64,000 nt of DNA, taken from NCBI GenBank assembly GCA_028015205.1, contig JAPWFG010000069.1, positions 61,001 to 125,000 on the forward strand. The letters run 5' to 3'. This DNA comes from Mytilisepta virgata. Its lineage: Eukaryota > Mollusca > Bivalvia > Mytilida > Mytilidae. The notes beneath the pieces are model-generated. The model was not told where the DNA came from. It saw only the letters and a program-made list of their open reading frames with translations, and ran no database searches. Within the stretch, counting starts at the first letter, position 1. Each line of letters starts with the position of its first letter. Below are positions 9,233-51,474 of the stretch, in pieces. Both the position numbers and the translations under genes were made by a program.

Positions 9233-9690
9233 TACGATGGCCGATAGCAGCCGGCAGAAAATAAAAGTAAAAAAAAAATTTGCCCCTAAAAACTGCTGCA
9301 GCAAATTTAGAGGCAGAAAAGAAAAAAGAAAAAGAAAATTTGCCTCTAAAAACTGCTGCAGCAAATTTAGAGGCAGAAAATAAAAATAAAAAATAAAATT
9401 TTCCCCTAAAAACTGCTGCAGCAAATTTAGAGGCAGAAAATAAAAATAGGAAATAAAATTTGCCCCTAAAAACTGCTGCAGCATATTTAGAGGCAGAAAA
9501 TAAAAATAGAAAATAAAATTTGCCCCTAAAAACTGCTGCAGCATATTTAGAGGCAGAAAATAAAAATAGAAAATAAGATTTGCCCCTAAAAACTGCTGCA
9601 GCAAATTTAGAGGCAGAAAATAAAAATAAAAAATAAAATTTGCCCCTAAAAACTGCTGCAGCAAATTTAGAGGCAGAAAAATAGATTCTC
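9233..9690 (+). repeat. Left terminal inverted repeat with about seven 60-bp subterminal repeats
   Basis: After the terminal 35 bases, a 60-bp unit repeats: aaactgctgcagcaaattta, then gaggcagaaaataaaaata, then an A-rich spacer and tttgcccct. Each unit contains the 12-bp palindrome CTGCTGCAGCAG. The first three units match those of the right end (51474 inward) even in single-unit variants. Regular palindromes near a transposon end are plausible transposase binding sites (inference). Long minus-strand open frames here are a by-product of the 60-bp (20-codon) period. Confidence 0.85.
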
Positions 9691-10124
9691 CTCATATGAT
9701 TAATGACGAATGTCTTTCTTCTTTATGCTTCCCATAAATTTTTGCTTGTATGTGTACAGTTGAATTCCCACAGAGGGAATATGTAAAATTTGTAAAATTG
9801 TATATCAGCATTTCGCAAGAAGAAGTGAAAATGTAAGTATTATTTTATAATACGATGGCCGATACCGCACAACATAAAATACTTTGTAAAGACAAAAATT
9901 TGCGACACTTTAAACTGCAGTGGAAAAAAGGTATAAATCTCTGTCAACTTTGTAACTGAGATGTCTGGAAAAGAGATTAAGAGTCGTGAAACGAAACAGA
10001 ATGTTATCTACAATCATAAAAAACGCTCTAGGTCAACATCTTAGATAAAACCGTGTGTATTCTCATTCATTTTGACTGTTAAATTCCAGAGGAAGGAGGT
10101 GAAAATGTAAGTTTATTTTATTAC
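9691..10124. other. No recognisable gene; two short exon-like blocks
   Basis: The sequence just inside the left end (ctcctcatatgattaatg ... tctttatgcttccca) recurs beside the decayed array at 37911-38010. Two blocks with consensus splice borders, 9774-9832 (cccacag ... gaaaat|gtaagt) and 10090-10106 (ttccag ... gaaaat|gtaagt), could be untranslated leader exons. Both end in AT before the donor, as does the first HECT exon. Nothing else can be named. Confidence 0.35.
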
Positions 10125-10315
10125 ATTATCTTTTTGTATAAGATATTTTCAACAAATTCATTTAAAATCTTGTCTGTTCCAGGAGCCTTGTAATTTTTTA
10201 AATCCCTTATCCCATCTAATATTTCCTGTTCAGTGGTAACATCATAAACAGGATTGTCACATATTTCATTAATATCTATTTCAGTCTCACCCAAACAAGT
10301 TTTACCAATTATTTA
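10125..10315 (-). pseudogene. LINE reverse-transcriptase fragment (finger/palm start)
   Basis: The minus-strand translation gives EIDINEICDNPVYDVTTEQE, then ILDGIRDLKNYKAPGTDKI and LNEF. The 'I..LKN.KAPG.D.I.NE' box is the start of the RT domain in CR1/L2/Jockey-type LINEs. Only about 60 codons remain, with no downstream catalytic motifs. It is a dead relic inside the giant element. Confidence 0.75.
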
Positions 10316-12337: not shown

Positions 12338-12339
12338 TA

Positions 12340-15059: not shown

Positions 15060-17115
15060 ATATCCACAAATCTGAGTTCATGTCTACATGGCCATTCGTC
15101 TGTCTAAATGTCCATTAGTCTGTCTTCATGTCCAGCAGTCTGTTAACATGTTCACCAATCTGTGTACATGTCCACAAATCTGTCTACATGTTCACCAGGT
15201 TGTGTGTATACTCACCAGTCTGTCGACATGCCCACAAGTCTGTCTGCATGTCCACCAGTCTGTCTGTGTGTGTCCACAAGTCTCTCTACATGTTCACCAG
15301 TCTGTCTACGTGTCCACTAGTAATTCGACATGTTCAACAGTCTGTCTATGTGTCCACTAGTCTGTCTACATGTCCACCATGTAAACATGTTTACGTGTCG
15401 ACCAATCTGTCACCAGTCTGTCACCATGTCCACCAGTTTACGTGTCCACTAGTCATTCGACATGTTCACCAGTCTGTCTATGTGTCCACTAGTCTGTCTA
15501 CATGTCCATCAGTCTGTTTACATGTCCACCAGTCTGTCTATGTGTCCACTAGTCCGTCTACATGTCCACCAGTCTGTCTATGTGTTCACAAGTCTGTCTA
15601 CATGTTCACCAGTCTGTCTACGTGTCCACCAGTCTGTCTATGTGTCCACTAGTCTGTCTACATGTCCATGTAAACATGTTTACGTGTCGACCAGTCTGTC
15701 ACCATGTCCACCAGCCTGTCTATGTGTCCACTAGTCTGTCTACATGTCCACCAGGTTCACCAGTCTAACATCGTGTCCACCAGTCTGTCTACGTATCCAC
15801 CAGTCATTCGACATGTTCACCAGTCTGTCTATGTGTCCATTAGTCTGTTTACATGTCCACCAATCTGTTTACGTGTCCACCAGTCTGTCTACATGTCCAC
15901 CAGTCTGTCTATATGTCCACTAGTCTGTCTACATGTCCACCAGTCTGTTTACGTGTCCACCAATCTGTCTACACGTCCACCAGTCTGTCTATGTGTCCAC
16001 AAGTCTGTCTACATGTTCACCAGTCTGTCTATGTCCACCAGTCATTCGACATGTTCACCAGTCTGTCTATGTGTCCACTAGTCTGTCTACATGTCCACCA
16101 GTCTGTCTACATGTTCACCAGGTTCACCAGTCTATCTACGTGTCCACCAGTCAGTCAACATGTTCACCGGTCTGTTTATGTGTCCACTAGTCTGTCTACA
16201 TGTCCACCAGTCTGTCTATGTGTCCACTAGTCTGTCTACATGTCCACCAGTCTGTCTATGTGTCCACCAGTATGTCTACATGTTCACCAGGTTCACCAGT
16301 CTATCTACGTGTCCACCAGTCAGTCAATATCTTCACCGGTCTGTTTATGTGTCCACTAGTCTGTCGACATGTCAAAAGGTCTGTTTACATATCCACCAGT
16401 CTGTCGAGGTGTCCACAAGTTTGTCTACATATTCACCAGTCTGTCTACGTGTCCACCAGTCATTCGACATGTCTACCAGTCTGTTTACGTGTTCACCAGT
16501 CAGTCGACTTGATAACCAGTCTGTCTTCATGTTCACCAGTCTATCTACGTGTCCACCAGTCTGTCTACGTGTCCACCAGTCAGTTAACATGTTCACCCAC
16601 CGGTCTGGCTTTGTGTCCACTAGTCTGTCGACATGTCCACAAGTCTGTCTATGTGTCCACTAGTCTGTTTACATGTCCACCAGTCTGTTTACGTGTCCAC
16701 CAGCCTATCTACATGTCCACCAGTCTGTCTACATGTCCACCAGTCTGTCAACATGTTCACCGGTCTGTTTATGTGTCCACTAGTCTGTCGACATGTCCAC
16801 CATTCTATCTACGTGTCGACCAGTCAGTCAACATGTTCACCGGTCTGTCCATGTGTCAACTAGTCTGTCTACATGTCCACAAGTCTGTCTACATGTCCAC
16901 AAGTCTGTCTATGTGTCCACAAGTCTGTCCATTGTCCACCTGCCTGTCTACATCTCCACTTGTTTGTATTCACCGTCCATTTGAATGTCTACATGTCCAA
17001 CAGTCTGTCTATATGTTCACCAGTCTTGTCCACCAGTATGTCGACATATCCACCAGTCTGTCTTACTGTCCACAAGTCTGTCTACATGTCCTCCAGTCTG
17101 TCAATCAGTTTGTCG
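15060..17115 (+). repeat. 2-kb minisatellite, 20-bp unit
   Basis: The unit is approximately GTCTGTCTACATGTCCACCA, repeated about 100 times with point variants (acatg/atgtg/acgtg; ccacca/ccacta/tcacca) and occasional 9-12-bp insertions such as aggttcacc. Because 20 is not a multiple of 3, one strand reads a 20-residue repeat in every frame, which creates long overlapping open frames (STSLSTCPPVCLHVHQ-like). Variants alternate in places, suggesting 40- or 60-bp higher-order units. It is not a gene. Confidence 0.95.
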
Positions 17116-19958: not shown

Positions 19959-20129
19959 TAACTCCTTATATTGCAGTGACGGATATATCCGCTCTTCGAT
20001 AGGGCTTCATGTTTATGTCCAATATGGCACTCCATACATTGAATAAATGCTACCTAGAGGGCTCATTGTGTAGCTGCGTGGCTGTTGATTATATTTACCA
20101 CCATTATGTCTGTTTTTTAATCAGTTACA

Positions 20130-24264: not shown

Positions 24265-24300
24265 ACTTAATGTGGATTGATTGTAGTAATGATGAACCTT

Positions 24301-27410: not shown

Positions 27411-27474
27411 AACCTTAACCTATTCAAATGATCTGTAAGGCCTAATTGAGAATTTTTTAATTTATTTTCCTTGT

Positions 27475-33600: not shown

Positions 33601-36600
33601 TCTTCATATGAACGAGATCTGATGTCCAATGAAAATTACTACATGTATGAAAAAGAACGGATATGGAGCAAATGTCAAGGAGACAACCTTCCATCTCCAA
33701 AGTGACTGGCTACATTTGTATTTACAAATGTGGTATAGAAGATGAATAATAATCAGTGTTAAATACATGTACATGAGAGTTAATATAAATTCCATCAAAC
33801 AACATAACATAACATTTTTAGTGCCTACTCATATACATTCCATTTTTTTATGTTATTGAATTCATATTTTCTATTTTTGGGTGTAAATTCCGAGCTATTG
33901 CACCGATGCTTTAAATTTTGCATCTTTCAGGCCATTCCAAGTACATGACTTATCCCGGTCCATTTCATTACTGAAAATAATATTAATAAATGTATTTCAG
34001 TATATTTGAATTCATCACTCCGTGTACACTCATGTCATGAAGAACTTTCTTTTCATTAACATCATGAAAAAGCAGAAAGAGACTTAAATATTTATAATTT
34101 CAGGAAATGGAAACCTACATAAGAGACAGAACTGGTCTTGTCGAGTTCAATCTAATTTTTCGAGGAGAGATCATCGATGAGGGCAAAAGATTGAACGATT
34201 TGTTTGGCAATAGCCAAGAACCTGTCTTCATCAGGGTTGAAGAACAGAGGTGAGATTAAAAATGTCACAGTTTTACGTGAATAATAGTTCAATAACACTG
34301 TTAGAATCAATAGCATTGTAAGAACCTTAAAGACCTTGAGTTTCCCGTATACTTAAAATGATTCAAAAAAGAATTTTCACGAATCATTCATTGCATATGT
34401 AACACTTATCCGAGGCCCTAGAAGGAACAATGTGTATTTTGTAAAAGCAGATCATCTCAGCTGATATAATGACGTGTAACATCAAACTTTAACTTGGTTT
34501 TACAATACAATAGATTGGTAGCGTTATTTTCAGCGATACCGACTTTCAATGAAATTATATCATTTTTCTTTTAGTTCATCTGAAGTATCCAAGCCAGTTT
34601 CATCTTATTACGACAACAAATCAAGTCCCGAGGCCGTCTTAAGAGTGGCCCTAAAAGAATTGTGAGTAATTTCCTTCTAAACAAATAAAAAAGTACATAT
34701 TGGAGGCACTACATGGGTGTGTCTACAGAATCACATAATCACAAATTATTTTCCTCTATATGTAAAGATGATATGTGAAAATGATTTTTGGAAATTAATC
34801 AAACGCGGTTGTAATTTCCACTCTTTCTCTTATGTGTGTGTGTGTGCGGCCGTGCATGCATGCGTGCATAAAATGAAATGAAAATCACATTAAACTAAAG
34901 GGATTACTTTTGTAATATCAGATTTGGCACTAATTTTTGTCAAGCAAGATCTCTTGAGATTTTCTTGACTATGTTGTCGCAGAAATTTCATCGAATACCG
35001 GATGCGTGTTGCTCGACAGATTCCATGCGCAATCATACCATATCAAACCATAGAATCAGTCTATTATTATTTATGCGGTTTGAAGAATAACTTGTATGAT
35101 TTGAACAATATATTATTATAATCACTTGAATTCAAGATATACTTAACAAAACAATTATTTCTTTTGAAATATTTTGGTTGAGTCGGACTATTTTGTAAGG
35201 TACCATCAGTTACAGAAAACAGCGCTGATTAATAGGTTGATAAGGTACACACCGTACTTTAAGTTGCACTAAATGAACAGGTAGATCGTCAAATCGTACG
35301 ATATTATAGACCTACTGTACAGTAAATTTGCAAACAATTAAATGACTTGTTTCATGTATATAAAATGAGAAATAATCATTCTTTGCAGTAATGATATACA
35401 TGTATCGATGAATAATTAACTGATCAGGGGTTTGGTTTACAACGGGAAGAGCCTGTCGTTTTAAAGTTTATCAAAGTAATTATTGTGATTATGTTTCAGC
35501 TGCAGTAACGCTTATCATAACAGACCTCGTGACCTATTTAACTTGATAAGCGTAAACAATTTTCTCTGATAAAGCTAAAGTAATAAGAAAAACTCTGAAA
35601 ATATCGTTTTTGAATCAAAGTTATGAATGGTACATGTATTACAATAACAACAGTCCATTTTAGGTCACCTGGCCCAAAGGGCCATGTGAGCTGTTGCTAT
35701 CACTTGGCATTGTCGTCGTATTAACTTTTTCAAAAAGCTTCTGCTCTGAAACTACTGGGCCAATTTGAACGAAAGTTAGTTAGCCTGAGTGATGCATAGG
35801 ATGTCTACTTTCAAGATTGTATTCGATGACCCCGCGGACCAATTAAACATGGCCGCTGTTATTATAAATAGAACATGGATGGAAAAAACACAAAGATCTT
35901 CTCTTGTGAAACTACTTGGCCATTTAGAATCAAACTTTGAATGAACGGTCCCCGGGCTTTTCCTGACCAGGTATGTCCTGGAGGTGGTCCTTTATGTTTT
36001 TGGTGCCGATGAGAAATTGAACATAGTTACTAGGCCAACAATGTGTTTTGATTAGCTGAAATTTCAAAGAACTTGTAAGAAACTACACAACCATTATAAT
36101 TCTGCTATGGTATGAATGATCCTTAAGTGGTTGTCTAAGAAAGAATGTGTTTGGTCCAGATTGGAAATCCAAGATTTCTTTCATCCTGGAAGAAAGTTAA
36201 ACATTAGGCCCTTTGGGAAATGCATTTAAAGATCTTACAAATAATTAGAACAGTTGAAATTTACATACTCATAAATGATTATAGGTGAGTGATACAAGTT
36301 CAGGTGAGCCTCTAGATTCGTTTTGCCTCAGGAAATAGGGAAATGCATTTGAAGATCTAACAAATGACTAGAACAGTTGAAATTTACATAGTCGTGATAC
36401 AGACTAAGGTGAACCTCAAGATTTGTTTTGCCTCAGTAAGCCTTTGTTTACCCCTTGCTTCAATGAATTACATAAAGATTTGCTCCATAGAATTGGTTTT
36501 TGTCCATATACTTATATACTTGCATTCCTTTGAAGTCAGCCTTTATTTCAAACGCAGAATCATAAGGCTTTAGAGCTATAGTTCATGTGTATTATCCATT

Positions 36601-39600
36601 AACTTATTTCCCATGATGATCTTACTTGACACTCAGTATTTCAGTAGTTTGATTATTTTAGGGAAGGCGTTGAAGAACCAACAGAAATTCTGAAAACATA
36701 TTGCAAGCATTTTCTGATGGGACGTCCGTTAGATGTTACGGATGAATCACTAGAAACAGAGGGTCAAACGTCAGAAATATTTGTTGGTCGGGATACCGTA
36801 TTCCATGATGCCTTGTCTGAGATGACACAATTGGAAAACATCAGATATCCACTCAAGGTGACTTTTTATGGTGAAGAGTGTGAAGACTTAGGAGGCCCTC
36901 GTAAAGAGTTTTTCTACATTTTGATGAGAGAAATTCAAGAGAAGATGATTGATGAAGAAAATCTGAAAATGGTGAAAAATTGTGTCTACATATCAGAAAG
37001 ATACTACTATGGTGCAGGATTAGCAGTTGGTATGTGAAGTTCCATGGGATTATATTAATATAAAGACAGGAATTTATTTCTTGCTTGAAGGATTTTCGAA
37101 GAAAATCTGTTCCATGTTGCAATAAATTCAGAAAATTTTTTCTCTACTACAAGAGAATAATGTATATAATGTAGGGTGCCATAAGGTTTCAATGTAATCT
37201 TCTGACGTCTGTTGGTAGGCCATATTAAAATTCAAGTTAGCAGCAAAATACATGTACGGACCTCAGTAGGAATGCATCTCTGTAAAGTTTCATTCCATTC
37301 TGTTCTGTAGTTCTTTAGGTTCTTTAGAAGAAGTTTTCCTCGATAAGTCAATCAGCAATTAGAATAGGCCGGTATGAGCCGAAGGAAAGAAAGAAAATTA
37401 AAATTGTCTTTCAATAATGCTGCCGCAAATTTTAGAGGCAAAAAAAAATTAAAAATGAGACTAAAAATTGCAATAGCAAATTTTACAGGTAGAAAGAAAA
37501 TAAAATAAGCAAAGCACTTATAAATTGCTGCAAAAATTTTTGGAGGCAGAAAAAGAAACAAAATAAAAATTGCCATTAAAATACTGCAGTAATTTCTAGA
37601 GACAGAACGAAAAACAAAATAAAAATTTACTTTAAAAACTGCTGCAGCAACTTTTAGAGGCCAAAAAAAAAAATTGCCCTTAAAAACTGCTGGACCAATT
37701 TTTAGAGGCAGAAAAGATAATAAAAATTGCCTTTAAAAAATTATGCAATAATTTTTAGAGGCAGATTAAAAACAAAATAAAAATTGCCCTTAAAGCTGCT
37801 GCAGCAAATTTAGAGGCATAAAAAAACCAAAATAAAATATGCCACTAAATGTAACACGCAGGAAAAATAAAATAAAAATTGTTCTTAAAAACTGCTGCAG
37901 CAGTATAAACTCTCCTCGTATGGTAAATAAATTAAAGAAACTAGATTTTTCTAATAAAGTATCACATCAAACTTGATTAAGTCTTTCTTTTTTATGCTTC
38001 CCAATTATTCCTTTTTGCATCATTACAAACTGAAAGTACACAACTAAATACAAACAAATCCGATGTATGGCCCAACAAACTCTGAACAATACACAAAAGC
38101 AAAATATTTAAAATTAAACAAATTCCAAATGACTTTTTAGCTCACCTGGCCAAAAGGGCCATGTAAGCTATTGTCACCACTTTGCGTCTGTCGTGGTAGT
38201 CGTCGTATGTCGTCTTTGTTAACTTTTCACATTTTCATCATCTCCTCTGAAATGGCTGGGCCTATTTGAACCAAATTTTGGTGTAATGGTCCTTGGCTGG
38301 TCCTCTTTCAAATGTCCACCTCCAACCAACATGGCTGCAGTTACTAAAAATTAAAACATTTCGACAAGAAAATGCTAAAAAATTCTTCTCTGGAACCATT
38401 TGACCAATTGAGACCAAACGTTGGTGGAATGGTCCTTAGGTGGTACCCTTTCAAAATTTTGTCTGGTAGTCCCGACCTCTTACCGACATGGCCGCCGCTA
38501 CTAAAAATAGAAAATTTAACAAAAAATATACTTAAAAATCTTCTCTGAAACCACTTGGCCAATTTGGACCAAACTTTCTTGGAATGGTCCTTGGTTGGCC
38601 CCCTTCCAATATGCTATCCGATGGTCCCGACCTTGGACCACGATGGGTGCCATTACTAAAAATAGAGCTTAATGCAAACATAGGGTTGTGACTCGAAATT
38701 GCAAAAGCTGTTAAAATGTGATGCCTTTTGTTCATTTTAGCCTACTACTAATAAATACTTTCACCATGCCCAAAGCAAGATGGCCATGGTTACTAAAAAT
38801 AGAACCTAATGCAAATATAGGGTTGTAACATATCAGAAAACTTGAGATTGCACATGCTGCTTAAATGTGATGTTTTTTGTTCATTTTAGCCAGCTGCTAA
38901 CAAATTCTTTCATCATGCTCAGAGCAATATGGAGATTGTTACAAAAAAAAATGCAAATATTTGGTTGTGACATATCAAAGGACACTTATAAACAGGTAAT
39001 ATCATGGTTCTCAGACCATGATGGCCCATTGCTACTTGAAATAGAACTTGTGAAATATCAGAAGACCAAAACTACAAATGCTGCTTAGATGTGATGTATT
39101 TTCTTCATTTCAGCTTATTAGTTCTCGGACCAAGATGGCCACTGCTACTGAAATTAGAACTTAATGCATAATAATATAGAGTTTTGATACATCAGAAGAC
39201 TTGAAATTGAAATTGCAAATGCTACTTACGCATGATCTTCATGATAAATCATAGATTTGAAGAAGATTTGAGTTGTAAAGCTAATTAAATGCGATTAGGG
39301 TCCTTTTGGTAATATTGGCCACTGAAACACAGTCAACTTCGGTCAGGTGAGGTAAGCACTGAGCAAGTTCAATAGTGAGGTGTTGTAACCTTTAACAGAA
39401 TTACATATTGAAATTAGTCTTATTTGCTATTATGTTGAACATTAAATGTGCATCTGTAGCAATTATTCTCTTTGTAGGACTCAGTATATTAGAGGGTGGA
39501 GAATGCCCAAAATTTTTACACGTAATGACGGTAGACAAAGAGGCAGAGGAATACGAGCAGTTTAGAAAGGGGTTGTCCAAAACTGGAGTTTTACAGGTTT

Positions 39601-41436
39601 ATATCGAGTATACCACACTTACATACAATTAAAGACTTCTAATGTTTCGAATTCCATTGCAAAAAACTTACTGTAAGACTTCGCTATTATGTCTTGTTCT
39701 TACGATTTTAGAAATATAATTTTCAAGCTCAAACTATACAAGTTTATTGAAGAATTTTCTTCTATGGCAAGAGTACTGTCAAGCTAAATATCACTATAAT
39801 TATTACACCTGAACAAATAGTTCCTTACAAAATTGGTGTTGATATCATTGCTGTAAGTCATGTTTCTTGAGCTACACAAGTTTGAGGGTTGCTACACCGA
39901 CTTGCACATTAAGATGAAAACTAATAAAAAAATGAAACATATTCAAATTTACATAACATTAGTGTATTAACATGTTACCATGGTAACCCATGTCATCTAT
40001 AGTTATTACAGGTAAATTATCAATACAGGCCTTGTTGTAATAGACTACAATTGCAATTAAATACACCGTTCGAGAAGAAGAGACTGTACACATAAATGGG
40101 ATAGGAAAATACGTGATAGGATAATTTGATGCAGTGAAAATTCTAGGTATGCTGATGTGTTACATAAATCTTAAAATCAGACAAGAAGTATTTGGAATTA
40201 TTCAAAATGAAAATTCTTCAGCAGCACTAGAAGTGCAATGTTTTCTGGCCGTAAGGGTGATCTTAATGTTTTGGAATATTTCATTCCAGATTGCCATGCT
40301 TTTCTTTCAGTGAGGAAATATGTGGTCAATTATTTTTTTTCCCTAAGCAATAACACTGAAATGCTCGTTTATATCTTAATGCAGCTGTTAAAGGAGAAAC
40401 CGTCCTTCACCTTTCTGTTCCAACCCAATACAGGGAGAGTAACTGTCACCAAATTGCTTCATTTTCTTAAGCCAGTCTTCTCAGAGCTTGGAAGTAACAG
40501 AAGAAATGCCGAGGAAAGGATTTATAGCGCCTTTGTAAGATATGTCAGGCAAACTGCAGGTAATGTAATGATATATGTATATATATATTTTTATGGAATA
40601 TATGCCATTTTTTTTGTTTCTGGTGATAACTTTATGACGGCAAGTATCAGGCAAGCCAACTTTTTCGTAACTCTGTCAGGTTTTTTTTTGTCTTTTAAAG
40701 TACACTTTTAATGTTCTCTATTATCTAATAAAGACCTTTTTGAAAAGGTGCAAAGGTTTTTTTTTCGGTGAGGGTCCCACCATTACTTGCAGATGAAACG
40801 GAGATGAAAAAGAATACATCACATCCTTACATCTGGTAAATGCTAATTTCTGTCTAAAATTAATTCTATACCAGTGCATGATTAGTTCCCAATTTTACGG
40901 ACTATTCAATGATAATGTGGAAATTAATAAGAGTCGTGAATACATGTAATATTTTTAAATTTTGTGTTAATATTATTAAAATTCTACATTTGTCCTAATG
41001 TATATGCAAATTGTTGCAAGATATTATTATTTTATTAAATTACAAGGGCAATTACTTTACAGATATCTAAAACAAAGCACTTGATTTATAATGTCTTCTA
41101 GCCATAACGACATTCAGTGAATACTTTTACCTTTTGTGTGGTTAATTAAAGTTGTTATGCATGTACTACAGAATTTGCATCTTTTTTCTTACAGCTGGGC
41201 GACGTGGTAATGTAACAATAGAGAAAATTCTCCAGTTTTCAACTGGAGCAGCAGAAGAGCCGGTACTGGGGTTTTCTGTGGACCCAAAGGCCACTTTTGC
41301 CGAACTAGAAGGGATTTTTCCCACTGCATCTACCTGTATCAATCAACTGACCTTGCCACTGACTACGTTGAGTGAAGATCAGCTATTTGATAAGTTCGAT
41401 CTCGCATTTATGAACAGTTTCTTTGGGCTCAGATAA
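27984..41436 (+). CDS. HECT-type E3 ubiquitin ligase with TDP-43-N-like and ubiquitin-like domains (12 exons)
   Basis: Exons are 27984-28021, 29168-29256, 30471-30638, 30905-31026, 31398-31737, 32645-32847, 34104-34249, 34575-34661, 36662-37029, 39478-39596, 40385-40559 and 41195-41436. All junctions are GT-AG and all phases agree, giving one 2,097-nt frame. The first Met is formed across the first junction (AT|G), giving about 686 residues unless an upstream exon exists. The order is TDP-43-N-like (1-85), unknown middle (87-240), Ser/acidic linker, ubiquitin-like (about 281-356), HECT (386-686). HECT ligases take ubiquitin from an E2 onto their Cys and pass it to a substrate. The HECT resembles the short G2E3-like proteins expanded in bivalves. 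It lies in the giant element and converges on the transposase gene. Confidence 0.88.
28164..28415. mobile_element. MITE, about 250 bp, in HECT intron 1
   Basis: TTAAGGGACCGACCATCCAG...gggggaggctgtatgg at the left is an imperfect inverted match to ccatagccatccccttcaag...atgatagatccctaa at the right. Short, non-coding and diverged. Confidence 0.6.
28416..30470. other. HECT introns 1-2 remainder; imperfect 300-bp duplication
   Basis: Apart from exon 2 there is no gene. A diverged tandem duplication pairs about 29885-30085 with 30215-30370 (shared words: 'tgaccaatggccac/tgacccatggccaac', 'ttgcattgata', 'acatcttttaacattgcac'). Short open frames on the minus strand here show no domain. Confidence 0.45.
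30905..31737 (+). CDS. HECT gene exons 4-5: middle region of unknown fold
   Basis: Exon 4 encodes a basic, Ser/Thr-rich segment (FQNFMTFRQRLQETPTKSRS). Exon 5 (340 nt) encodes IYVGIGRFDGKKFSK, VSLIIEEAYKKFTYSFRNF, FVLVYPDGAKVETLP and MKFDRLRLYLCEK. The alternation of beta-like strands with one helix, and the 'LVYPDG' and 'L.LYL' elements, suggests another small ubiquitin- or PB1-like fold, but I do not recognise it. Both exons keep the frame with their neighbours. Confidence 0.75.
32645..34249 (+). CDS. HECT gene exons 6-7: Ser/Asp linker and ubiquitin-like domain
   Basis: Exon 6 begins with an acidic, serine-rich stretch (VTDSSSSDDELPS, a candidate casein-kinase or SUMO-interaction-like site). 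It then enters a ubiquitin-like pattern that exon 7 completes: LVITIHFQVKD, FPNNAIAKEMETYIRDRTGL, FNLIFRGEIIDEGKRLNDLF and PVFIRV. The 'F.GE.I.E...L.DL' turn is the equivalent of the ubiquitin 'FAGKQLEDGRTLSDY' region. The intron between them holds an MITE and a SINE. Confidence 0.65.
32848..33178. mobile_element. Fold-back MITE flanked by (TA)n, in HECT intron 6
   Basis: Between two TA-dinucleotide runs (32848-32868 and 33157-33178), arms of about 110 bp pair: caaataaagatccaacacaa...cacgtcttcatagacgatct...aatacagcagtaacta is repeated inverted from 33045 to 33157. The loop is about 50 bp. The (TA)n borders suggest a TA target. Confidence 0.8.
33179..33331 (-). mobile_element. tRNA-derived SINE
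   Basis: On the minus strand the 5' head GCCTAGGTGGCCGAATGG (33328-33311) contains an RNA polymerase III A box, and GTTCGAATCCC (33254-33244) a B box. The spacing suits a long-variable-arm tRNA such as Leu or Ser. A 60-nt tail follows to the (TA)n run. It is not a functional tRNA gene: the acceptor stem is not closed and a non-tRNA tail follows directly. Confidence 0.75.
33531..33567. repeat. Perfect 17-bp hairpin in HECT intron
   Basis: CATGGAAGTATTATATT, loop gac, then the exact reverse complement. No T-run follows, so there is no sign of a terminator. Probably the core of a small fold-back repeat. Confidence 0.8.
34662..35662. other. HECT intron 8, left part; nothing recognised
   Basis: AT-rich intron with a (TG)n run and gcatgcatgcgtgcat near 34838-34868. 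No coding or RNA feature seen. Confidence 0.5.
35663..36350 (+). mobile_element. 'agctcacctgg' family element in HECT intron 8
   Basis: It starts with a strong stem (ggtcacctggccc-aaa-gggccatgtgagct), has two internal blocks with 'ctgaaactactgggccaatttgaa', and ends near 36315 with ttcaggtgagcctctag. Related copies: 20130, 38139, 42336. Confidence 0.65.
36662..40559 (+). CDS. HECT gene exons 9-11: HECT N-lobe
   Basis: Exon 9 carries the HECT start: PLKVTFYGEECEDLGGPRKE and FFYILMREI, then RYYYGAGLAVG. Exon 10 continues LSILEGGECPKFL. Exon 11 holds TGRVTVTKLLHFLKPVFSEL and ERIYSAFVRYVRQTAG. The GGPRKEFF and Y..G.A.G..L..G motifs are the standard HECT N-lobe elements. The lobe is shorter than in NEDD4-type enzymes, as in G2E3-like proteins. 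The intron 37030-39477 holds a decayed terminal-repeat array (37395-37905) and an 'agctcacctgg' element. Confidence 0.88.
37395..38010 (+). repeat. Decayed copy of the giant element's left terminal array
   Basis: Eight or so diverged units of 'taaaaactgctgcagcaaattttagaggcagaaa' end at 37905 and are followed by ctctcctcgtatggtaaat and tctttcttttttatgcttcc, which also follow the left terminal array at 9690-9745. It is in the same orientation as the left end and lies inside HECT intron 9. Confidence 0.75.
38139..39375 (+). mobile_element. 'agctcacctgg' family element, long, in HECT intron 9
   Basis: The 5' stem agctcacctggccaaaagggccatgtaagct is followed by about five internal blocks (ctgaaac...ggccaatttg.accaaacttt...tggaatggtcctt; then 'ccaagatggcc.ttactaaaaatagaa'). 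The last recognisable piece is cggtcaggtgagg near 39345. Non-coding. Confidence 0.65.
41195..41436 (+). CDS. HECT gene last exon: C-lobe with catalytic Cys
   Basis: After cttttttcttacag the frame reads GRRGNVTIEKILQFSTGA, VLGFSVDPKATF, FPTASTCINQLTLP and ends FFGLR-stop. The Cys of PTASTC (codon 41335-41337, residue about 654) is the ubiquitin-accepting residue and is intact. The terminal hydrophobic tail typical of HECT enzymes is also present. The coding context predicts an active ligase. Confidence 0.93.
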
Positions 41437-41639: not shown

Positions 41640-42114
41640 TCCAAAAAGCCTTTTAGTTGGTTTATGCTTATACATGAATCAAAAATCCAAAACCTTAATG
41701 CACAACTGCACATAATAAGGAACAATACTATGCACAAAAAAAACCCTGCAATAAAAAGTGAATGAGGAGTTCCACTGACAAGGTTTTTCACATGTGAAAT
41801 CAATTTTGGCCCCCTATTCGGCCCTAGTCCAGTCACTCAAAAATCCAAAACCTTACTGCACATCTACATATAGTAAGGAACAATACTATATACAAATAAA
41901 AGACCTGCAGCAAAAAATGAATGAGGAGTTCCAATGACGAGCTATTTAACATGAAAAGTCCCTTTTTGGCCCCTTATTCGGCCCTAGTCCAGTCACTCAA
42001 AAATCCAAAGCCTTACTGCACATCTATATATAGTAAGGAACAATACTATATATAAATAAAAGACATGTAAAAAAAATGAACGAGGAGTTCCACTGATACG
42101 CACTTAGCCCCCTT
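41640..42114. repeat. Tandem array, about 155-160-bp unit, three units
   Basis: The unit contains ttggccccctattcggccct, agtccagtcactcaaaaatc, caaaaccttactgcacatct, tagtaaggaacaatacta and aatgaggagttccact. The last unit runs directly into the HECT-tail fragment at 42115. Confidence 0.8.
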
Positions 42115-42264
42115 GTTACTTTTGCGGACCTGCCTGGGAATTTGCCTACAGCCTCTACATTCATCAACAGATTAACCCTTCCAATAGATGCTAAAGTGAA
42201 TGATGAGAAACTGTTTGACATATTTGACCTAGCATTTTGCAATACATATTTTGGTTTAAAATAA
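42115..42264 (+). pseudogene. Second HECT C-lobe tail, catalytic Cys replaced by Phe
   Basis: The frame reads VTFADLPGNLPTASTFINRL, TLPIDAKVNDEKLFDIFDLA and FCNTYFGLK-stop. It aligns with the last 50 residues of the exon at 41195-41436, including the tail (FFGLR/YFGLK), but is clearly diverged. Codon 42160-42162 (TTC) replaces the active-site Cys. No acceptor or first half of the exon is visible; the upstream side is the tandem array. Probably a relic of a second HECT copy rather than an alternative last exon. Confidence 0.8.
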
Positions 42265-43033: not shown

Positions 43034-44687
43034 TTAGATATTGTTATACTGAAGGTGCTCTTGGATATGAAAATATTGTTTGAGAGCATCATGCCAATGT
43101 TTGGCATCCTGCCAACCAAATCTGCGAAATTCTGCGGAGGCTAACTGATCAAACTGGGAAGAACCACTTCTTGTAGGTGTTCGGCAATACTGAAAAGCAA
43201 AGTGTAGATCATCTTCATCCAACTTTTGAATGCAGTTATGACCACCTACAAAGACCACCAAGGAAAAAAATTAAATTACATATTTTACAGAAAACGGTTC
43301 TTTGGCAAAGCAGTTTGTGATATATAGTTAATTTTTTTTTTGTTTCTTCTAAAGTACTTGATTTCACAACTGGTTCATGTAAAGAAAACTATGATAAAGG
43401 TTGCACAATTCAGAGTTGAAATATATTAACACATAAACTCCTGTGTTACCAATACACATTGATATTTATTTCAGAGCTCCCAACTTTATACTGTATGCTG
43501 TATGAGAGGTTGATGTTCAGTTGAAGGGACTGAATCGCCTTATTAAACATGACTCAAATCCTAACTTTGGAATTCACTCAGTGTTCATATTATTTCATGG
43601 CTAATAGTGAAGGGAGAGTTTTACTGTATGCTAATTTTTATCTGTTGATTTTTATCCTCTTATTATTTCTGTAATAAATTCTAGCACTATGCATTATTCT
43701 TCACCTGCTATTTTAAATGCACTTTGATTTTTGTCTGTACAATTGTTGTGAAATTTTAATTTTCGTGTGACAAGGCTGAGTGAGTTTTACCGTCATTGCT
43801 TTAGTTTTCAGTGTTTTCAATGTTTGTGTTTCATGTTTCTTTGTTTTCTTGTCCTCGTCTGTTTTCCTGGTTTTTCCTTGTCCTTTGATTGTACGAATTT
43901 TGACTATGACTTTGGTATGCTTCTTGCTTTTCTTTTACAAGCAAAATTATACAATCATGCTGAATGAGGTAATCTGATACCCATCAATTGTCTACTTACT
44001 GCTTGTTGGATGCAACATGGATACAAAATATAAAGAAATTAGTTTTGTCCCGCAAGGGTGTATCATGTCGATAAAATTGTATAAACCTACCGCTTAGTTC
44101 AGGAACAGTAAAGAGAATTGTAGGTCGTCCGTTTGGACAAGCAGCATTCCTACTGTGTGAAATATGGTGATTATTCCAACGATCCTTAAGGTCATCTAAT
44201 TCACTTTGAAGAAGTGACATGAAACAGAATCTGGCACATCTCCTAATAACAATAGATAAGAATATATGATAGGTTTTATTTTCAAGAATCTTTCCGAAAC
44301 GGATTAAAGACCCCTTTAAACGGAAGAAAATATGAAGTTAAAGTGTGGAGTTTTTCGTTGTTCAAACATATTATGATAACATTAAACAGCTAGAAAGCGT
44401 TAACAAAGTAAAACAACTATTATAGTACTGAAAATGTGATTGCTAAACAAAACCAAAATTAAAAATAATTAATTGGTTTTTTGGCACTATGAAACCCATC
44501 GATATAACTCTCAACGCAATTAATGTAAATTGATTTCTACAGTAATGTACAATGCAGAAGGAAAATATATTTACTTGTCATGATCGTTCCCTCTTCGAAA
44601 TCCACCAAATGCCGCAAGATCTTTAAAGAAAGAGATCCACCATTCGCTTTCTTGCCTTCTAAGCATACTCCACCAAGCTTCTATCCT
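43034..44687 (-). CDS. Transposase exons 7-9: catalytic Glu and C-terminal region
   Basis: Exon 7 (44687-44575) starts RIEAWWSMLRRQESEWW and reads ISFFKDLAAFGGFRRG, with the catalytic Glu at its start. Exon 8 (44242-44091) reads RCARFCFMSLLQSELDDL and HISHSRNAACPNGRPTIL. Exon 9 (43245-43034) encodes a 70-residue tail (KLDEDDLHFAFQYCR, WQDAKHWHDALKQYF) ending at a TAA. The last two exons follow the pattern of the animal integrase-core family beyond the DDE fold. Confidence 0.88.
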
Positions 44688-47600
44688 CTGCAAAATGGCA
44701 CAAGAAATATGCAAAGAAAAGCCTACGATAAGATAAATAGATCCTCAAACCGATAAAACAATCCACAGTCGGTTGAAAAAAAAAAACTCAGTAAAAGTCA
44801 GTAATAATGTATTTACAAAAACGATATTTTGCAGTTTGCATATTGGAAATAATAAAAAAAATAACATATACAATATACAAGGTATAAGTACACGCAGGCA
44901 ATTCTATTAACATAGTCTTTTTTGCACACCGTACGAATCTTAAATTTTAAGGCAGTCAGATGAACAATTTCTGACTATTCCTAACAATGGAATAGTCTGT
45001 AACTCAGATTTTTGCAGAATGCGTCTAATGGTTCTCCCCTTCTCCTAAGAAACCACAGCCGTCCATTATCCTACCGATAACTATAAATAACTAGTCATTG
45101 TAGTTCAAATCTTTAGAACTGACTACACATTTATTATTTTTCAAGTTATGCCAACTTCGGCCAATTTACCTGATTTAGTTTAGATTCACTGACACGGTAG
45201 CTATTTATTCCTGAAAAATAGTCAACGGCATCATTTCTTAATGTGCACTGTATTGTTCCAGAGGTTGTATTTTCGGTACCAGGATCCGACTGAAGAATCA
45301 ATGGACAACCTGAATTAAATTTGAACATATTTTGAACATCGAATGCAAATAGTGAAATAGTCCACACAAGGGTTGTTATGAGACAGTAATTTTCTTTCTT
45401 TTCCCCCAATTCCTGAATACCTGCTTACGCAAATTAGAATTTGACAATCTACATATTTTCAACGTTGATCGAAGATTATAAATTTTAAAATATGGCAAAT
45501 ATTGATCAGTATGGTTTTGTTTTTTATATAACGACCAAAATATTGCATGCATGGAGGCAAGAATTTCTTCTACAAGTAAGAAAAATATGAACCACTGCAT
45601 GTCATACCTTTTGCAATATTGTCAACCTTACCTTGGTGTTCAGCCATGCAGCATACGAAATTGTATGCTGTAAGTGACGGATCATTGTTTGAGGGTCCTA
45701 CAGTTAACCACAATATCTTCCTTGAGTACCTGTAAAAAAAGTTTACAAACGTTATCGCAACACAATCCTTAAGCATGCAATAAGACAATATTTGATTGAT
45801 AACAATAAATTAAGCACCGTTTTTAATGATCAAATATAATCAAATTAAAAAGAGAGAACTAATATTGTTTAATATGAAGATGGGGGTGCTTTGAAAACAT
45901 ATGCTATAACCATTATTCCATGCCAAGAAGAAAGAAAAACGTGATATATCATCAGTTTCAATTTTGCAATTTTAAAACAATAATGACTAATGTTTAATGC
46001 ATTATGGAAACATCATTTGGGGTATAAATTCAACAGACTTGAATTCCCTATACGTACCCATCAATGCACCCATGAATCGGAAAACCATAAGGCTTTAATT
46101 TGTCATACCTGAAACACATATATGTACATATGTAGATTATATTTTCAATTAATATATACGTGTTGTTTAACATACTGTCATTTTTAGTTTTACTATCAAA
46201 TTCAACAGTGGGCTAATCTCTAATCGTGACAATACTTTGTTCTGTACAATTGACACACCAAAGGCCTACGATAAACAAGCCAATAAAAATTTCAACCTGT
46301 GTTTTTGTTTGTGTAATGACTATACTACGGATTCATTGACACAATTACTATCACACTCCAGCGCATTTGTAGACATTATTTGAAGCAATTATTGTCTGCA
46401 TACACTTATAAAGTATTTGATCGAAACGCATAGGAGTTTCGAATTTGACAGTGAATTCAAAACTATATGAAAAGTAGATATGATATAGTAGCAGTCATTG
46501 AAACGCCGAGAGGAAAGATCATATCATGTAAATGCTCTACCCAAGAAATGCTATTTTTTTTTCAAAAAGGCAGTGAATATTCTATGCGGTCCAACTGTGG
46601 CCAAGTGGTCTAGATAGCGAATGGACAATTTTATGTACAGATAACTTGTAGCCATCTAAACTCTAGATTTGAGGCTGAATTACTATGATATTGTCAGTTA
46701 CTTGCCATGAGTTATTACGGATTTCACCGTTAGTAGGAAAAGCTATGAAATGGTAAAATCTGGTTAAACTCCATTCAATCAATTGATCAAGTCGGGTTTT
46801 TTTTTAATTATTACTAAAAAGATAAAAAAAAATATGGACAGTTAACTGTCTCATAGGAAGAGTACTACAAACCCGTCTATATGCCACACATGATTTGGAC
46901 CAATTGAACGGTACACTTTTCGATTTAATCTCCTTCTACGTCTGAGCATGCTACTTGCTGGATCTATTTCTCGCATCAACTCCATAACAGTATCTCTATT
47001 AGAATCAAAAAACATAGAAATCACTAAGTTACAGTACTTCGCTGACTGGATATAGGGAGCTTAATATCTTGCAAATACTAATCCCATAGTCAACATATAC
47101 ATGAACTTAATATGTCTAATAAATTCCTCGTGAACTAAAGGTTCACTGGGAATTTATAATGAGGTGGTTTTCGTATACATGTATAGGAAATCCACCTCAT
47201 GGATTTCATATTTATCTTTATGGGTCGACTAGTGGAAATCAATTGATAAAGTTCTTCCTGTCTTGTCCCGATGTAGATGGCTGTCATAAAAAAATTACAT
47301 CTCGATCGATAAAACTGTTAATCCGTAAGTTTTATGTAAATGTCGTCACATTAAATGTTTGTTATCAACTGTGAGACCTTCAAGATTAAAACAATTATAT
47401 GACAAGAAGTTTCGTTGATTTTCTTATCAGTGACAGATTGAGTCTACAATTCATTGGCTACATATTGGTTTTACTGATGAGCACACACCCATGGTATAAG
47501 TCAACTATACTTATCTTATATTCTTATATACAACTGACCTCCGAACATGAATGTTTTTCTGTCTTAAAATATCTGTCATGTTTCGATATCCAATACTCCA

Positions 47601-50477
47601 AGGCAAATCTTGCAGCAAAAGCTAGAGGAGAGAAAAATCCAACATTGTACAAGTAGCTTAAAATTGTACAAGTAGCTTAAAATTTACATTTTGCCTGTGT
47701 AATATCTGTGGAACCATATAAGGTGTACACAAATTAAACTAGGAGACCCTGTTTTAGTGGACTAAAACATTTGTCGCCCCTTCTCCTCACCATGGGACAA
47801 CCAAAATTAGAACTGAAATAATCCCTTCTTATCATCAGCAATATAAAAACACGTCGTTTTGGTGATCCCAACAAATTTGGAGATAAATAAAGATCACTAG
47901 GATGTTGGGAGAGGAAAAACCCCAGGGTCTAGACATACACTGAAATGAACTCGTCTTACAAACAGAGTTGAACAAATGTATGGTTTTGGGATGGGATCTT
48001 AACCGATTTAGAAATAATCAAAGTTCACTATATAGAGGGGGTGGATATGATCCCTTGGGATCCAACCTTACACTGAAATATAAACCTGTTTTATCACCAT
48101 GAATATAAAAATGAATGGTTTCGAGGGTGGGGTTGCAACTGAAACAACTGATTAACAAATAATCAAAGTTCACTATATAGAGGGGGTGGGGATGACCCCT
48201 GGGGACCAAAACTTACACTGAAATAAACCCTTTTTATCATCAGGAATATAAAAACGTATGGTTATATTGGTTGGGGATCTCAACCAATTTGATAATTGAA
48301 ATCACTTGGGTGGTTAGGGGAGGGGGACAACCCCAGGAGTTTAGACATACACTGAAATGATTTCGTCCTACAACGGGAATGACAAAATCTATGGTTTTGG
48401 GGTAGGGATCTCCACCGATTTAGAAATAATCAAAGTTCACTAAATGGATATGAGGATCCAATAAAGGGTAATTATAGTACGCCACACTTCACCATGCCAT
48501 AGTGAACACTATATACCAAATGAATAAAGAAGTTCTGCCCCGGACACGCTACCAATGGAAAAAATCATTTATTTGACCTTGACCACATATGAAGGTCATT
48601 TTTGTATGCGACACTTCGCCTCGACCTAATACAAGTATGAACCAAACTCAAAAGACAAAAAAGTTCTGGCCCGGACAAGGTAATTTGAGAAGACATAGTA
48701 AAACAATATGTCTGATCCCTTCGATGTAGGGGAGACATAATTTCGGGAGCAGGTGCACGTGTGTGAACGTGTGAAAGTATGGCGCGGGATCTATTATTCA
48801 CATACTTGTATTTTTATATTCTGCCTCTAAATTTGCTGCAGCAGTTTTTAGGGGCAAATTTTATTTTTTATTTTTATTTTCTGCCTCTAAATTTGCTGCA
48901 GCAGTTTTTAGGGCATTTTTTTTTTTATTTTTATTTTCTGCCTCTAAATTTGCTGCAGCAGTTTTTAGGGGCAAATTTTATTTTTTATTTTTATTTTCTG
49001 CCTCTAAATTTGCTGCAGCAGTTTTTAGAGGCAAATTTTATTTTTAATTTTTTCTTTTCTGCCTCTAAATTTGCTGCAGCAGTTTTTAGGGGCAAATTTT
49101 TATTTTTACTTTTATTTGTGTTAACGTCCGAATTTATATGATACTTTCGACACCAGTGATTTAATTTATTTGTACCAGTACTAATAAAACATTAAATAAC
49201 TGGATGAACCAAGGCATGTTCCTTAGAGTGCTCGTGTTGAAAAACTACAACTTAAAAAAATCATTGCTTTTATTAAATAGTCATTTGACTGAGGATTGGG
49301 GACTGTTTTTATCGTGCGTGTTATTATTTTTTTTTAAATTATTTATAATAATTTATATTCTACTAGTGTATCTTTTCTCCTTTATGTGTCAGTTTTTTTC
49401 TTCTAGTGGTGATAAAAATTGCATTTCTACTGACAAATTTATACAATATAGATAAGTATGGAACTCAACGTAGAACTTTTATATTAAAGAAAATGTGTAC
49501 CTCCATAGATGTTTTGACTTCATTTCTGGTATGGATAGTCGGCCCTCTTTTACATGGACTACCAGCCTTCTTCAATCTTTTTCCTATTGCGTTTGAACTG
49601 ATTAAAAGAATGAAACAGAAACTTTTGAGCCATAAATTTATACAAATAGCATCTCATCTGATGTTCAATTTAAGAATACTTCACTCCATAGTGTGACCTA
49701 CGAGGATTAATGGATAATGAGAATTTGCAAAGCATTTTTCATATGAGGGCGACATTGTGTTTTCCATATTGTTTAATATATAAAGTTTACATTAGAATAT
49801 TAAAAATATTAAAAATATTATCCATTAATCTATGAAATCGTACCTAAGATTTATTCCCTTCGTCTTTTGTAGTAATGCTGAAATTTCTCGATATTTCAAT
49901 CCATTCTTGCTATGCTTCGTTATAAATTCAGTCACTGAAACCAAACAAAATAAATACAAATCTTTGATTCGTACGAAGGCAACTAAACGAATATGTAAAG
50001 GACTTTGATATCAAAATGCAAATGAATCAAAATTGTGCCGAGACAATTTTTGGAGCAAATTTTACATCTTAAACGGTATCGGAGTGGTTAAATTTCCTCA
50101 AAATATTTTCATTGATAAAACCTTTTCCTACAAATGAAAAATGACTAGTACTGTAGCATAACAAATTTTGTAAACATCGCACCTTATATATTCATGTATC
50201 GCATGTAATCGGCATATGCAACCAAATTCCCTGCAATATTCTCAAACAACTACACAATATGAAAGACGTGAATATCTCTAAATACGTTTGGTGACAGTGT
50301 TTAGGAATTATTTAGAATATCCACATAAACAACATTCGAAAAATACTTTCTACATTTAAAATATTTAGGTTATCTAGAAAACAAAGTGTGAGGTACAACA
50401 CACTGTAGTGAAACAAGTGAAATCGAATGAATACAAATGTTAACTCTTATCTTACCTGTTTCATGTGCGTCGGTCAT
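43034..50477 (-). CDS. DDE integrase-type transposase gene (9 exons), IS3EU-like
   Basis: Exons in transcription order: 50477-50456, 49934-49844, 46995-46873, 46108-46058, 45729-45632, 45309-45170, 44687-44575, 44242-44091, 43245-43034. All junctions are GT-AG and phases agree, giving 1,002 nt and about 333 residues from MTDAHET. The core is retroviral/IS3-like: D78 in NHVWHIDG, D137 in LQSDPGTEN, E178 in RIEAWW, with 40 residues between the last two. A C-terminal part (WNNHHISHSRNAACPNGRP) is typical of the intron-rich 'integrase core' family of animals. It would cut and join the ends of the giant element that encloses it (inference). A helix-turn-helix exon expected between exons 2 and 3 was not found. 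Confidence 0.85.
45170..46995 (-). CDS. Transposase exons 3-6: catalytic core with both Asp residues
   Basis: Exon 3 (46995-46873) ends in RKVYRSIGPNHVWHIDG. Exon 4 (46108-46058) reads YDKLKPYGFPIHGCID. Exon 5 (45729-45632) reads GYSRKILWLTVGPSNNDPSL. Exon 6 (45309-45170) reads CPLILQSDPGTENTTSGTI. This is the RNase H-fold integrase order: D1 strand, 'H.C.D..SR...W' strand, then D2 in SDPGTEN. The small exon sizes and consistent phases show this is a spliced gene and not a retrocopy. Confidence 0.9.
47750..48470. repeat. Tandem array, about 130-bp unit, four to five units
   Basis: The unit includes agaaataatcaaagttcact, atatagagggggtgg, ccttacactgaaataaac, ttatcaccatgaatataaaa and tggttttggggtggggat. 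Units differ by about 10-20%. Confidence 0.75.
48771..49120 (-). repeat. Internal copy of the right terminal array
   Basis: Starting gtgaaagtatggcgcgggat, it continues with five 60-bp units (ctgcctctaaatttgctgca, gcagtttttaggggcaaat) and ends in tttatttgtgttaacg. The inner flank is the same as that of the right end at 51164, but the terminal 25 bases (GCCGGCTGC...CGTA) are missing. It is a duplicated, end-less terminal repeat 2.4 kb inside the element. Confidence 0.85.
49844..50477 (-). CDS. Transposase exons 1-2: start and N-terminal helix
   Basis: The start ATG at 50477-50475 follows gcaggaaa. Exon 1 encodes MTDAHET and ends at AAACAG|gtaag. Exon 2 reads TEFITKHSKNGLKYREISAL and LQKTKGIN, resembling the first helices of a DNA-binding helix-turn-helix (compare 'Y..I...L...I.LS'). 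The second half of that domain is not found in 47.0-49.8 kb. Exon 2 can splice straight to exon 3 in frame. Confidence 0.72.
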
Positions 50478-51163
50478 TTTCCTGCTTTTGTTTTCTTTGC
50501 TGTATTAATCATTGACAATCTTAAAAATAGTACGCTTTTCACCTTTTTCTAATCGGTCGCTAATTTTGAAAATGTTAATAAATCTGAGAAGTACCTGCTG
50601 CAAAATTTCCAGACAAAGGGTATGACCTATTTATAGGTTCTTCAATTCTGTAATATAGACTTTCAAAACAAATTGTTAATTTAACTATCTAGACACTTTT
50701 TTTTCGTGACAAAAAAAAATGTCAATTAAATTTTCTTGACAATTTTTTTCTGAACATCTAACATTTCTTACCTGAATAATCCATGCTGCAATCGAAAAGA
50801 TATCAGACAACACGAAAGTAACTCGACTCGATTTCATCTTGATGATTACCACATGGTTTATATTAACCTATTTTCCACATGAAAAAAACATCTTTTAAAA
50901 ATGTCAGTTTATTACGATGGCCGTGTTAGTACTTTTACACTAAGTAAATAGTACATCTTAACTGCAACTTTAACTGTACAATTTGATGCTATAAGCAAGA
51001 TATACAAACCAGTGATTAAACTTTTATTAGCATATGAAAAATGTCTATATAGAAAATAACATATCGACGGCATTCTGTTTCATCAGAAAACATAAACCAT
51101 TATTTAAAAAAAAACCAGGACATCCTTAAAGGTGACACTGTAAATAACACTGAGGTGTCAATG
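50478..51163. other. Upstream of the transposase; nothing recognised
   Basis: AT-rich, with several homopolymer runs. It should contain the transposase promoter. One tacgatggccgtgttagt at about 50923 repeats the first ten bases of the element end. Confidence 0.4.
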
Positions 51164-51474
51164 TGAAAGTATGGCGCGGGATCTATTATTCACATACTTG
51201 TATTTTTATTTTCTGCCTCTAAATTTGCTGCAGCAGTTTTTAGGGCAATTTTTTTTTTATTTTTATTTTCTGCCTCTAAATTTGCTGCAGCAGTTTTTAG
51301 GGGAAAATTTTATTTTTTATTTTTATTTTCTGCCTCTAAATTTGCTGCAGCAGTTTTTAGAGGCAAATTTTCTTTTTCTTTTTTCTTTTCTGCCTCTAAA
51401 TTTGCTGCAGCAGTTTTTAGGGGCAAATTTTTTTTTTTACTTTTATTTTCTGCCGGCTGCTATCGGCCATCGTA
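51164..51474 (-). repeat. Right terminal inverted repeat with four to five 60-bp subterminal repeats
   Basis: The reverse complement from 51474 inward reads TACGATGGCCGATAGCAGCC, then the same sequence of units as the left end: a long A-run spacer, then the 'gaaaagaaaaaagaaaaag' unit, then the 'aaaattttcccct' unit. This shared order of variants over more than 230 bp marks true terminal repeats rather than independent minisatellites. The inner boundary is at gtgaaagtatggcgcggg. Confidence 0.88.

Follow-up and report, generated by a model that had tools for sequence, protein, structure and literature searches.

Transposons of the IS3EU/GingerRoot group are described as having TA..TA ends, 6-bp target site duplications, and an integrase-like transposase (PMC10045372; this and the other papers are cited for the portions of their text that were available). 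Fungal IS3EU elements are described as carrying extra genes beside the transposase, such as TET/JBP and alpha-kinase genes (PMC12730594). As for bivalves, a table in a paper on an oyster genome contains IS3EU-labelled satellites (PMC8268682), and the available main text on a curated library of bivalve DDE transposons has no occurrence of IS3EU (PMC10294476). Here we describe a 42,242-bp segment of the Mytilisepta virgata genome, found in a stretch of 64,000 nucleotides (the window; C65:61001-125000, where C numbers denote contigs, in an assembly of 1,034,323,453 bp in 109 contigs). Coordinates are window positions unless a contig is named. The segment is very probably a copy of a multicopy DNA transposon with inverted ends and 6-bp duplications, which likely moves by cut-and-paste with its own spliced transposase, a predicted gene. 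It also harbors a predicted gene for a HECT-type E3 ubiquitin ligase.

The 42-kb family, together with a second, 12-kb family from the same genome, resembles IS3EU/GingerRoot elements in three respects: a 6-bp duplication (8 of 10 pairs of ends in the 42-kb family, both copies of the 12-kb family), TA..TA termini (TACGATGG..CCATCGTA and TATGG..CCATA, respectively), and an integrase-like DDE transposase (Pfam model rva_4, at 9e-27 for the spliced, predicted product and at 1.9e-72 in the 12-kb family). Ends, duplications, and integrase-type domain make membership in this group likely. Unlike the TAYGG..CCRTA termini given for fungal IS3EU elements, the tips in the window begin with TACGA (TACGATGG), whereas the 12-kb family fits; the motif is stated for fungi, and we do not treat it as defining the superfamily. 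The 42-kb element further differs from described IS3EU/GingerRoot elements in being intron rich, in its HECT gene, and in the long arrays of palindromic units at its ends. Among the literature matches listed, judged by title and opening of the abstract and with subscription journals mostly outside, there was no IS3EU/GingerRoot element that contains a HECT gene or measures about 40 kb. We therefore judge as new a 42-kb intron-rich family that has its own predicted transposase and shares a HECT gene with a second family.

Boundaries of the 42-kb element and its copies in the genome

An earlier note, made from the window alone, had proposed that a giant transposon occupies 9233..51474 and interrupts a repeat unit whose two halves are normally adjacent. 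Its first and last bases are as claimed, with the tips TACGATGGCC (at 9233) and GGCCATCGTA (at 51474) and GAAAGT outside each tip, and in two other units of this repeat, which start at 6512 and 55677 in the flanks, the two halves run contiguously through the uninterrupted site. The left and right ends match over 216 terminal bp with 0 substitutions and one 1-bp gap, and the arrays diverge further in. Judged by the window alone, a duplication of 6 bp (GAAAGT) and one of 8 bp (AGAAAGTT) are both possible; 7 of the 9 other pairs of tips carry perfect duplications of exactly 6 bp, which fixes the length at 6 bp, and the 8-bp reading was dropped. The terminal decamer TACGATGGCC is present in the window four times and not just twice (9233+, 9851+, 50913+, and 51465-), against 0.01 expected and with 0 of 100 shuffles reaching four; each end thus has an additional tip-like site no more than about 620 bp away. 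The 60-bp unit of the subterminal arrays has a fold z score of -2.9 in one of three unit frames, and of -0.1 and -0.5 in the two frames that cut the palindrome. An Rfam search gave no match.

The 25-bp tip occurs exactly 21 times in the whole assembly (11 forward, 10 reverse), and its reversed control 0 times. Twenty of these tips face each other in ten pairs, and the remaining one, on C24, is a duplicated end, so that the ends do pair at a distance elsewhere in the genome, a check that the note had proposed. The pairs span 68,684, 48,558, 17,536, 42,764, 1,334, 44,078, 1,138, 1,333, 42,864, and, in the window, 42,242 bp. Eight of them have perfect 6-bp duplications, all different (GAAAGT in the window, CTTTTG, TATTAA, TTATTG, GATTAC, AATATC, GGTTTC, and GAAATT), and the eight sites are spread over six contigs. 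Comparison of the left flanks (100 to 120 bp) of the ten sites gave a single match, of 20 bp, at an E value of 1e-3. An assembly artefact or a segmental duplication could be invoked in that the evidence comes from an assembly and two pairs have no duplication; the precise coincidence of the boundaries with inverted tips, the different duplications at the eight sites on six contigs, and flanks that share only that one match render it extremely improbable.

Four copies on C6 were compared over their whole sequence: E1 (30.21 Mb), E2 (30.55 Mb), E3 (32.40 Mb), and E4 (40.25 Mb). In blastn matches that reach both 300 bp and 97% identity, shorter or weaker ones being dropped, E1 and E4 each cover all 42,242 window positions and E2 covers 41,159. 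Outside the internal tandem array at 15081-17102, which varies between copies far beyond the remainder of the element, substitutions number 87 in 40,220 (E1), 85 in 39,137 (E2), and 86 in 40,220 (E4), or about 0.2%. E1 is inverted and contains an insert of about 26 kb at window position 20110, with a flank overlap of 8 bp (20110-20117). E2 lacks about 0.6 kb and about 0.3 kb and carries a retrotransposon without long terminal repeats (LTRs), whose flanks overlap by 13 bp at 31227-31239. Owing to internal deletion, E3 (the 17.5-kb pair) covers 9,448 positions, and the 1.1- to 1.3-kb pairs retain the ends plus short interior pieces; these pairs are shorter members of the family that keep the ends.

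These comparisons bear on the possibility that a short element inserted first and host DNA filled it in later, in which case tips and duplication would be uninformative about mobility of the 42 kb. The interior common to several copies at different sites is decisive against such filling at one site: E4 covers 42,242 of 42,242 positions and is flanked by its own duplication, TATTAA. The tips, moreover, differ by 0 substitutions over 216 bp, compared with 70 in 1,222 between the arms of a foldback insertion nested within the element. We regard later filling as having almost no probability. The giant transposon of cut-and-paste type in the earlier note is in this respect borne out, being multicopy, with paired tips, distinct 6-bp duplications, and a 42-kb interior in common.

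Several side observations concern these copies. In one 10-kb stretch that was read from the insert of E1 (a copy located at C6:30214703-30283386), there is a single frame of at least 150 amino acids. The retrotransposon of E2 (stretch L018, 2726-7866, minus strand) has two open frames (487 and 1,227 amino acids) and is present only in E2 among the copies read. On C24, the right end and 100 bp of flank occur twice, at 330011 and 333759, 3.7 kb apart, which suggests local duplication of that copy's end. An exact, unpaired 20-bp tip lies at C3:16165292. With up to 2 mismatches, the first 20 bp of the tip give 51 matches (control, 0), with related tips TACGATGGCCGATAGCGGCC among them. The related tips, many of them TACGATGGCCGATAGCGGCC or ..ATATCAGCC, are from further families and lie on C2, C5, C8, C10, C11, C12, C13, C14, C23, C37, C59, and C66; three pair at 0.7 to 1.2 kb. 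Within 5 kb inward of three related tips there was no partner element with a transposase like that of the 12-kb family, and one weak match (E value, 0.053) was found in stretch L037, where there are retroelement-like frames.

A predicted transposase and a HECT gene in two families

The HECT gene model has 11 exons at 29172-41436 on the plus strand, joined by GT-AG junctions in phase into one frame of 680 amino acids. Its first exon has a similarity score of 36, compared with a maximum of 33 for the reversed strand. Pfam matches on the predicted protein are HECT (1.6e-6) and an N-terminal TDP-43_N domain (2.8e-5, just under the model cutoff), and the cysteine at residue 648, kept in the window copy, is taken as the predicted catalytic residue. 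Its closest relatives in sequence come from Pinctada imbricata (43%), Argopecten irradians (42%), and Pecten maximus, with Pinctada and Argopecten matches at 40 to 43%; the structure model of the Argopecten homolog was unusable (mean predicted local distance difference test score, 44). A genome-wide search with the HECT protein scored 65 of 159 first-look candidates, so that its counts are lower bounds: 54 matches lie inside six long pairs, at 56 to 99% identity, and 11 lie elsewhere, at 40 to 49%. The low-identity matches within the six pairs seem to reflect either exons extended into neighboring introns or the damaged last exon of E1. No near-identical HECT gene was found outside the elements among the 65 scored of the 159 candidates.

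Five of the distant HECT matches belong to dispersed copies that are 99.2 to 99.98% identical over 4.26 kb. Ten pairs of probes placed 5 to 40 kb from two of these copies gave no match, and reading the gaps revealed the second element, at C6:47744143-47756038 (11,896 bp) and C2:20637939-20650145 (12,207 bp). Its ends are TATGGAACGCC..GGCGTTCCATA, it has subterminal tandem arrays of 21-, 41-, and 62-bp units, and its two copies are flanked by the duplications ATTAAC and TATGCA, the latter being weaker as it lies inside a similar repeat array. According to Pfam, the frames of this 12-kb family include one of 416 amino acids with the rva_4 integrase core (PF24764), one with a SAM domain (5.1e-9), and one with a HECT domain (1.3e-7). 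Two more frames have no Pfam match and are read as parts of the HECT gene; one of these resembles exon 8 of the HECT gene in the window (39%, E value of 0.003).

A six-frame Pfam scan of the 42-kb element (84 tiles, 9233-51354, E value of at most 0.05) had returned HECT, TDP-43_N at 0.021 (later supported by the full gene model), and two further matches (0.008 and 0.024). Nor was the transposase revealed by a ranking of coding potential, which had HECT and long interspersed nuclear element frames as its training set and none of exons A to F among the best 40 rows. With the transposase of the 12-kb family as query, the window gave weak minus-strand matches at 46982-46875 (E value, 0.021) and 45316-45227 (E value, 0.14), and a candidate conclusion from the six-frame scan, that the element is nonautonomous, was overturned. 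Six exons, A to F (46995-44091, minus strand), all have AG/GT junctions and consistent phases; the joined product gives the rva_4 match with D, D, and E in place, and aligns with the 12-kb-family transposase at 34% over 168 columns (E value, 3e-21). Across E1, E2, and E4 these exons have four substitutions in total and no gap, with 25 bp of exons D and E lying outside the comparison. On this sequence evidence, the copy in the window likely encodes its own spliced transposase. In both families the coordinates place transposase and HECT gene facing each other, tail to tail.

These genes also bear on a second alternative, a nonautonomous macrotransposon in which the two ends of a small element flank a host segment with the HECT gene and the whole is moved in trans by the transposase of another element. 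Such an origin was suggested by the several old end-like sequences inside the element, by the 1.1- to 1.3-kb pairs with the same ends, and by the plain six-frame scans without a transposase. It lost ground when the query from the second family uncovered the predicted rva_4 transposase with its DDE triad inside the element, and it is opposed as well by the recurrence of HECT gene and transposase together in the second family and by the lack of a near-identical HECT gene outside the elements among the 65 scored. We consider it unlikely. The earlier note had also taken the two genes for host genes carried as cargo. That view is not supported: one is the predicted transposase of the element itself, and for the HECT gene, near-identical matches among the 65 scored of 159 candidates were found only inside elements. 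As a diverged homolog also stands beside a related transposase in the second family, the HECT gene appears to belong to the transposon lineage. Both gene types occur tail to tail in the 12-kb family as well, so that their pairing probably dates from a shared ancestor of this IS3EU/GingerRoot-like lineage.

Some observations weigh against a transposon that is autonomous and makes use of its HECT gene. Two of the ten pairs lack a 6-bp duplication: in the 68.7-kb pair the flanks have four bases in common (taat), and in the 48.6-kb pair they have none. On C11 and C24, pairs were examined at their ends and by HECT matches, and the HECT counts have the lower-bound character given above. The transposase is visible only when spliced, having escaped the six-frame scan, and its 225 amino acids lack N-terminal exons. 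The HECT frame is intact in 2 of the 4 copies read (the window and E4) and frame-shifted in the other 2, through an 8-bp deletion in E1 and a 2-bp deletion in E2. Between E4 and the window, the HECT gene has 4 nonsynonymous and 0 synonymous changes, and substitutions in three copies number 9 in 6,129 for exons and 61 in 30,186 for introns, rates that are not clearly different. Because the E4 changes are all nonsynonymous and exons and introns diverge alike, there is no sign of selection on the HECT gene since the last burst of spread.

These HECT data fit a passenger that was carried in the ancestor and has no role in transposition: the gene is broken in half of the copies read, the two intact copies differ by nonsynonymous changes only, and exon and intron rates are alike. 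The passenger explanation is at odds with the presence of a HECT gene beside the transposase in two diverged families and with the complete frame and conserved cysteine of the window copy; we give it somewhat less than an even chance. In the mechanism that we propose, the tips and the palindromic 60-bp units of the arrays would be recognized by the spliced transposase (rva_4, an integrase core with the DDE triad). This enzyme would bring together two ends that lie 42 kb apart, cleave at TA..TA, and excise the unit, which would then be joined to its target with a 6-bp stagger. The predicted E3 ligase, encoded by 11 exons and retaining the conserved cysteine, may benefit the element by marking proteins of the host or the transposase. 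As a hypothesis, removal of a host repressor or action on the transposase would both fit. This raises the possibility, which we put forward tentatively, that an animal lineage of integrase-type transposons, comprising the 12-kb and 42-kb families, keeps beside its transposase a HECT E3 ligase that would target proteins of host silencing or repair for degradation and in this way allow a unit of 42 kb, rich in introns, to multiply by cut-and-paste.

Features inside the element and flanking repeats

Features of the element are given in Table 1. The foldback insertion and similar older features predate the spread of the element, as they are present in E1, E4, and partly E2. The site lies between two copies of a non-LTR retrotransposon that are nearly identical, at 477-3531 and 59894-62956 (minus strand), and the region enclosed by them contains tandem units of about 1.36 kb. 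The right-hand copy has endonuclease, reverse transcriptase, and RNase H domains. A search for homologs of the flanking retrotransposon gave 3,079 matches. The interrupted flanking unit had earlier been labelled an LTR unit, a label left unsupported by these domains, which are those of the tested coding neighbors and not of the 1.36-kb units themselves.

Table 1. Coordinates of the 42-kb element, its predicted exons, and its repeats in the window
Feature	Position	Strand	Remarks
Giant DNA transposon, 42,242 bp	9233..51474	.	Paired tips, 6-bp duplication, three further near-full copies
Target site duplication GAAAGT, left	9227..9232	+	Sequence read at junction
Target site duplication GAAAGT, right	51475..51480	+	Sequence read at junction
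Left terminal inverted repeat (tip and first units)	9233..9448	+	0 substitutions vs right end
Right terminal inverted repeat	51258..51474	-	Inner limit approximate
Left subterminal array, about seven 60-bp units, palindromic CTGCTGCAGCA core	9253..9680	+
Right subterminal array, about four 60-bp units	51201..51454	-
Internal tip copy, diverged (71% over 77 columns), decamer exact	9851..9924	+
Terminal decamer TACGATGGCC, exact copy	50913..50922	+
Old end (diverged tip and degenerate array), within HECT intron	37367..37849	+
Second right-type end, last 26 bp missing	48770..49117	-
Internal tandem array, 2 kb, about 20-bp units	15081..17102	.	Most variable stretch between copies
Older foldback insertion	24299..27412	.	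Arms differ at 70/1,222 aligned; also in E1, E4; partly deleted in E2
HECT exon 1, predicted start	29172..29256	+	Weakest exon by similarity
HECT exon 2	30471..30642	+
HECT exon 3	30921..31026	+
HECT exon 4	31398..31737	+
HECT exon 5	32645..32847	+
HECT exon 6	34104..34249	+
HECT exon 7	34575..34661	+
HECT exon 8, HECT domain begins	36662..37029	+
HECT exon 9	39478..39596	+
HECT exon 10	40385..40559	+
HECT exon 11, conserved cysteine (residue 648) and stop	41195..41436	+
Second, similar last exon; Phe at conserved-Cys position	42097..42261	+
Transposase exon A, first D of DDE triad	46873..46995	-	Predicted, splice sites and similarity
Transposase exon B	46058..46108	-
Transposase exon C	45632..45729	-
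Transposase exon D, second D	45170..45309	-
Transposase exon E, catalytic E, NQRIE motif	44575..44687	-
Transposase exon F	44091..44242	-

Comparison with other large mobile elements

A 42-kb unit with an 11-exon gene is present at no fewer than six sites, and its spread is recent, the compared copies being about 0.2% apart. For gene presence-absence variation in a mussel, the available text of one study leaves a link to transposable elements open (PMC7653742); the 42-kb element offers a concrete mechanism for whole-gene presence-absence differences. A ubiquitin ligase as part of a transposon toolkit is suggested by our results and is a directly testable idea.

The medaka element Teratorn, a piggyBac-herpesvirus fusion of about 180 kb, is likewise a giant animal DNA transposon that multiplies in its genome (PMC10175614). 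Unlike Teratorn, the 42-kb element gave no Pfam match to a viral gene in the 84 six-frame tiles, and its 6-bp duplications vary in sequence; viral-contig pattern scans returned 0 stretches each. The target site of piggyBac is TTAA, whereas the duplications here are eight different 6-mers. Polinton/Maverick elements share a 6-bp duplication, an integrase-type transposase, and a size of 10 to 40 kb, as described in the portions available. They differ from the 42-kb element, in whose 84 tiles there is no Pfam match to a protein-primed DNA polymerase or a capsid protein, although a heavily spliced gene could escape such a scan, as the transposase did. Like Pack-TIRs and Pack-MULEs, the element has gene material between inverted ends. 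In a survey of animal Pack-TIRs, however, the inserts described are shorter than 5 kb (PMC8277862), and the 42-kb element is unlike Pack-TIRs and macrotransposons in containing a complete 11-exon gene with introns and its own predicted transposase, with no near-identical parental HECT gene among the 65 scored. Fungal Starships are also giant and carry accessory genes. They have a tyrosine-recombinase-like gene (PMC10175614), whereas a DDE integrase-type transposase is predicted here and the 84 tiles have no Pfam match to a tyrosine recombinase.

Eukaryotic transposable elements are described as generally smaller than 10 kb, with few giant exceptions (PMC10175614), and DNA transposition as dropping with cargo of more than 6 kb, with cargoes of 100 to 200 kb moved in artificial constructs (PMC6431247). 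Elements of this kind being usually far smaller than 42 kb, the size is itself noteworthy. It is intrinsic to the element, made up of introns, arrays, and older insertions and not of a single accidental capture, and it sets the 42-kb element apart from eukaryotic transposable elements generally.

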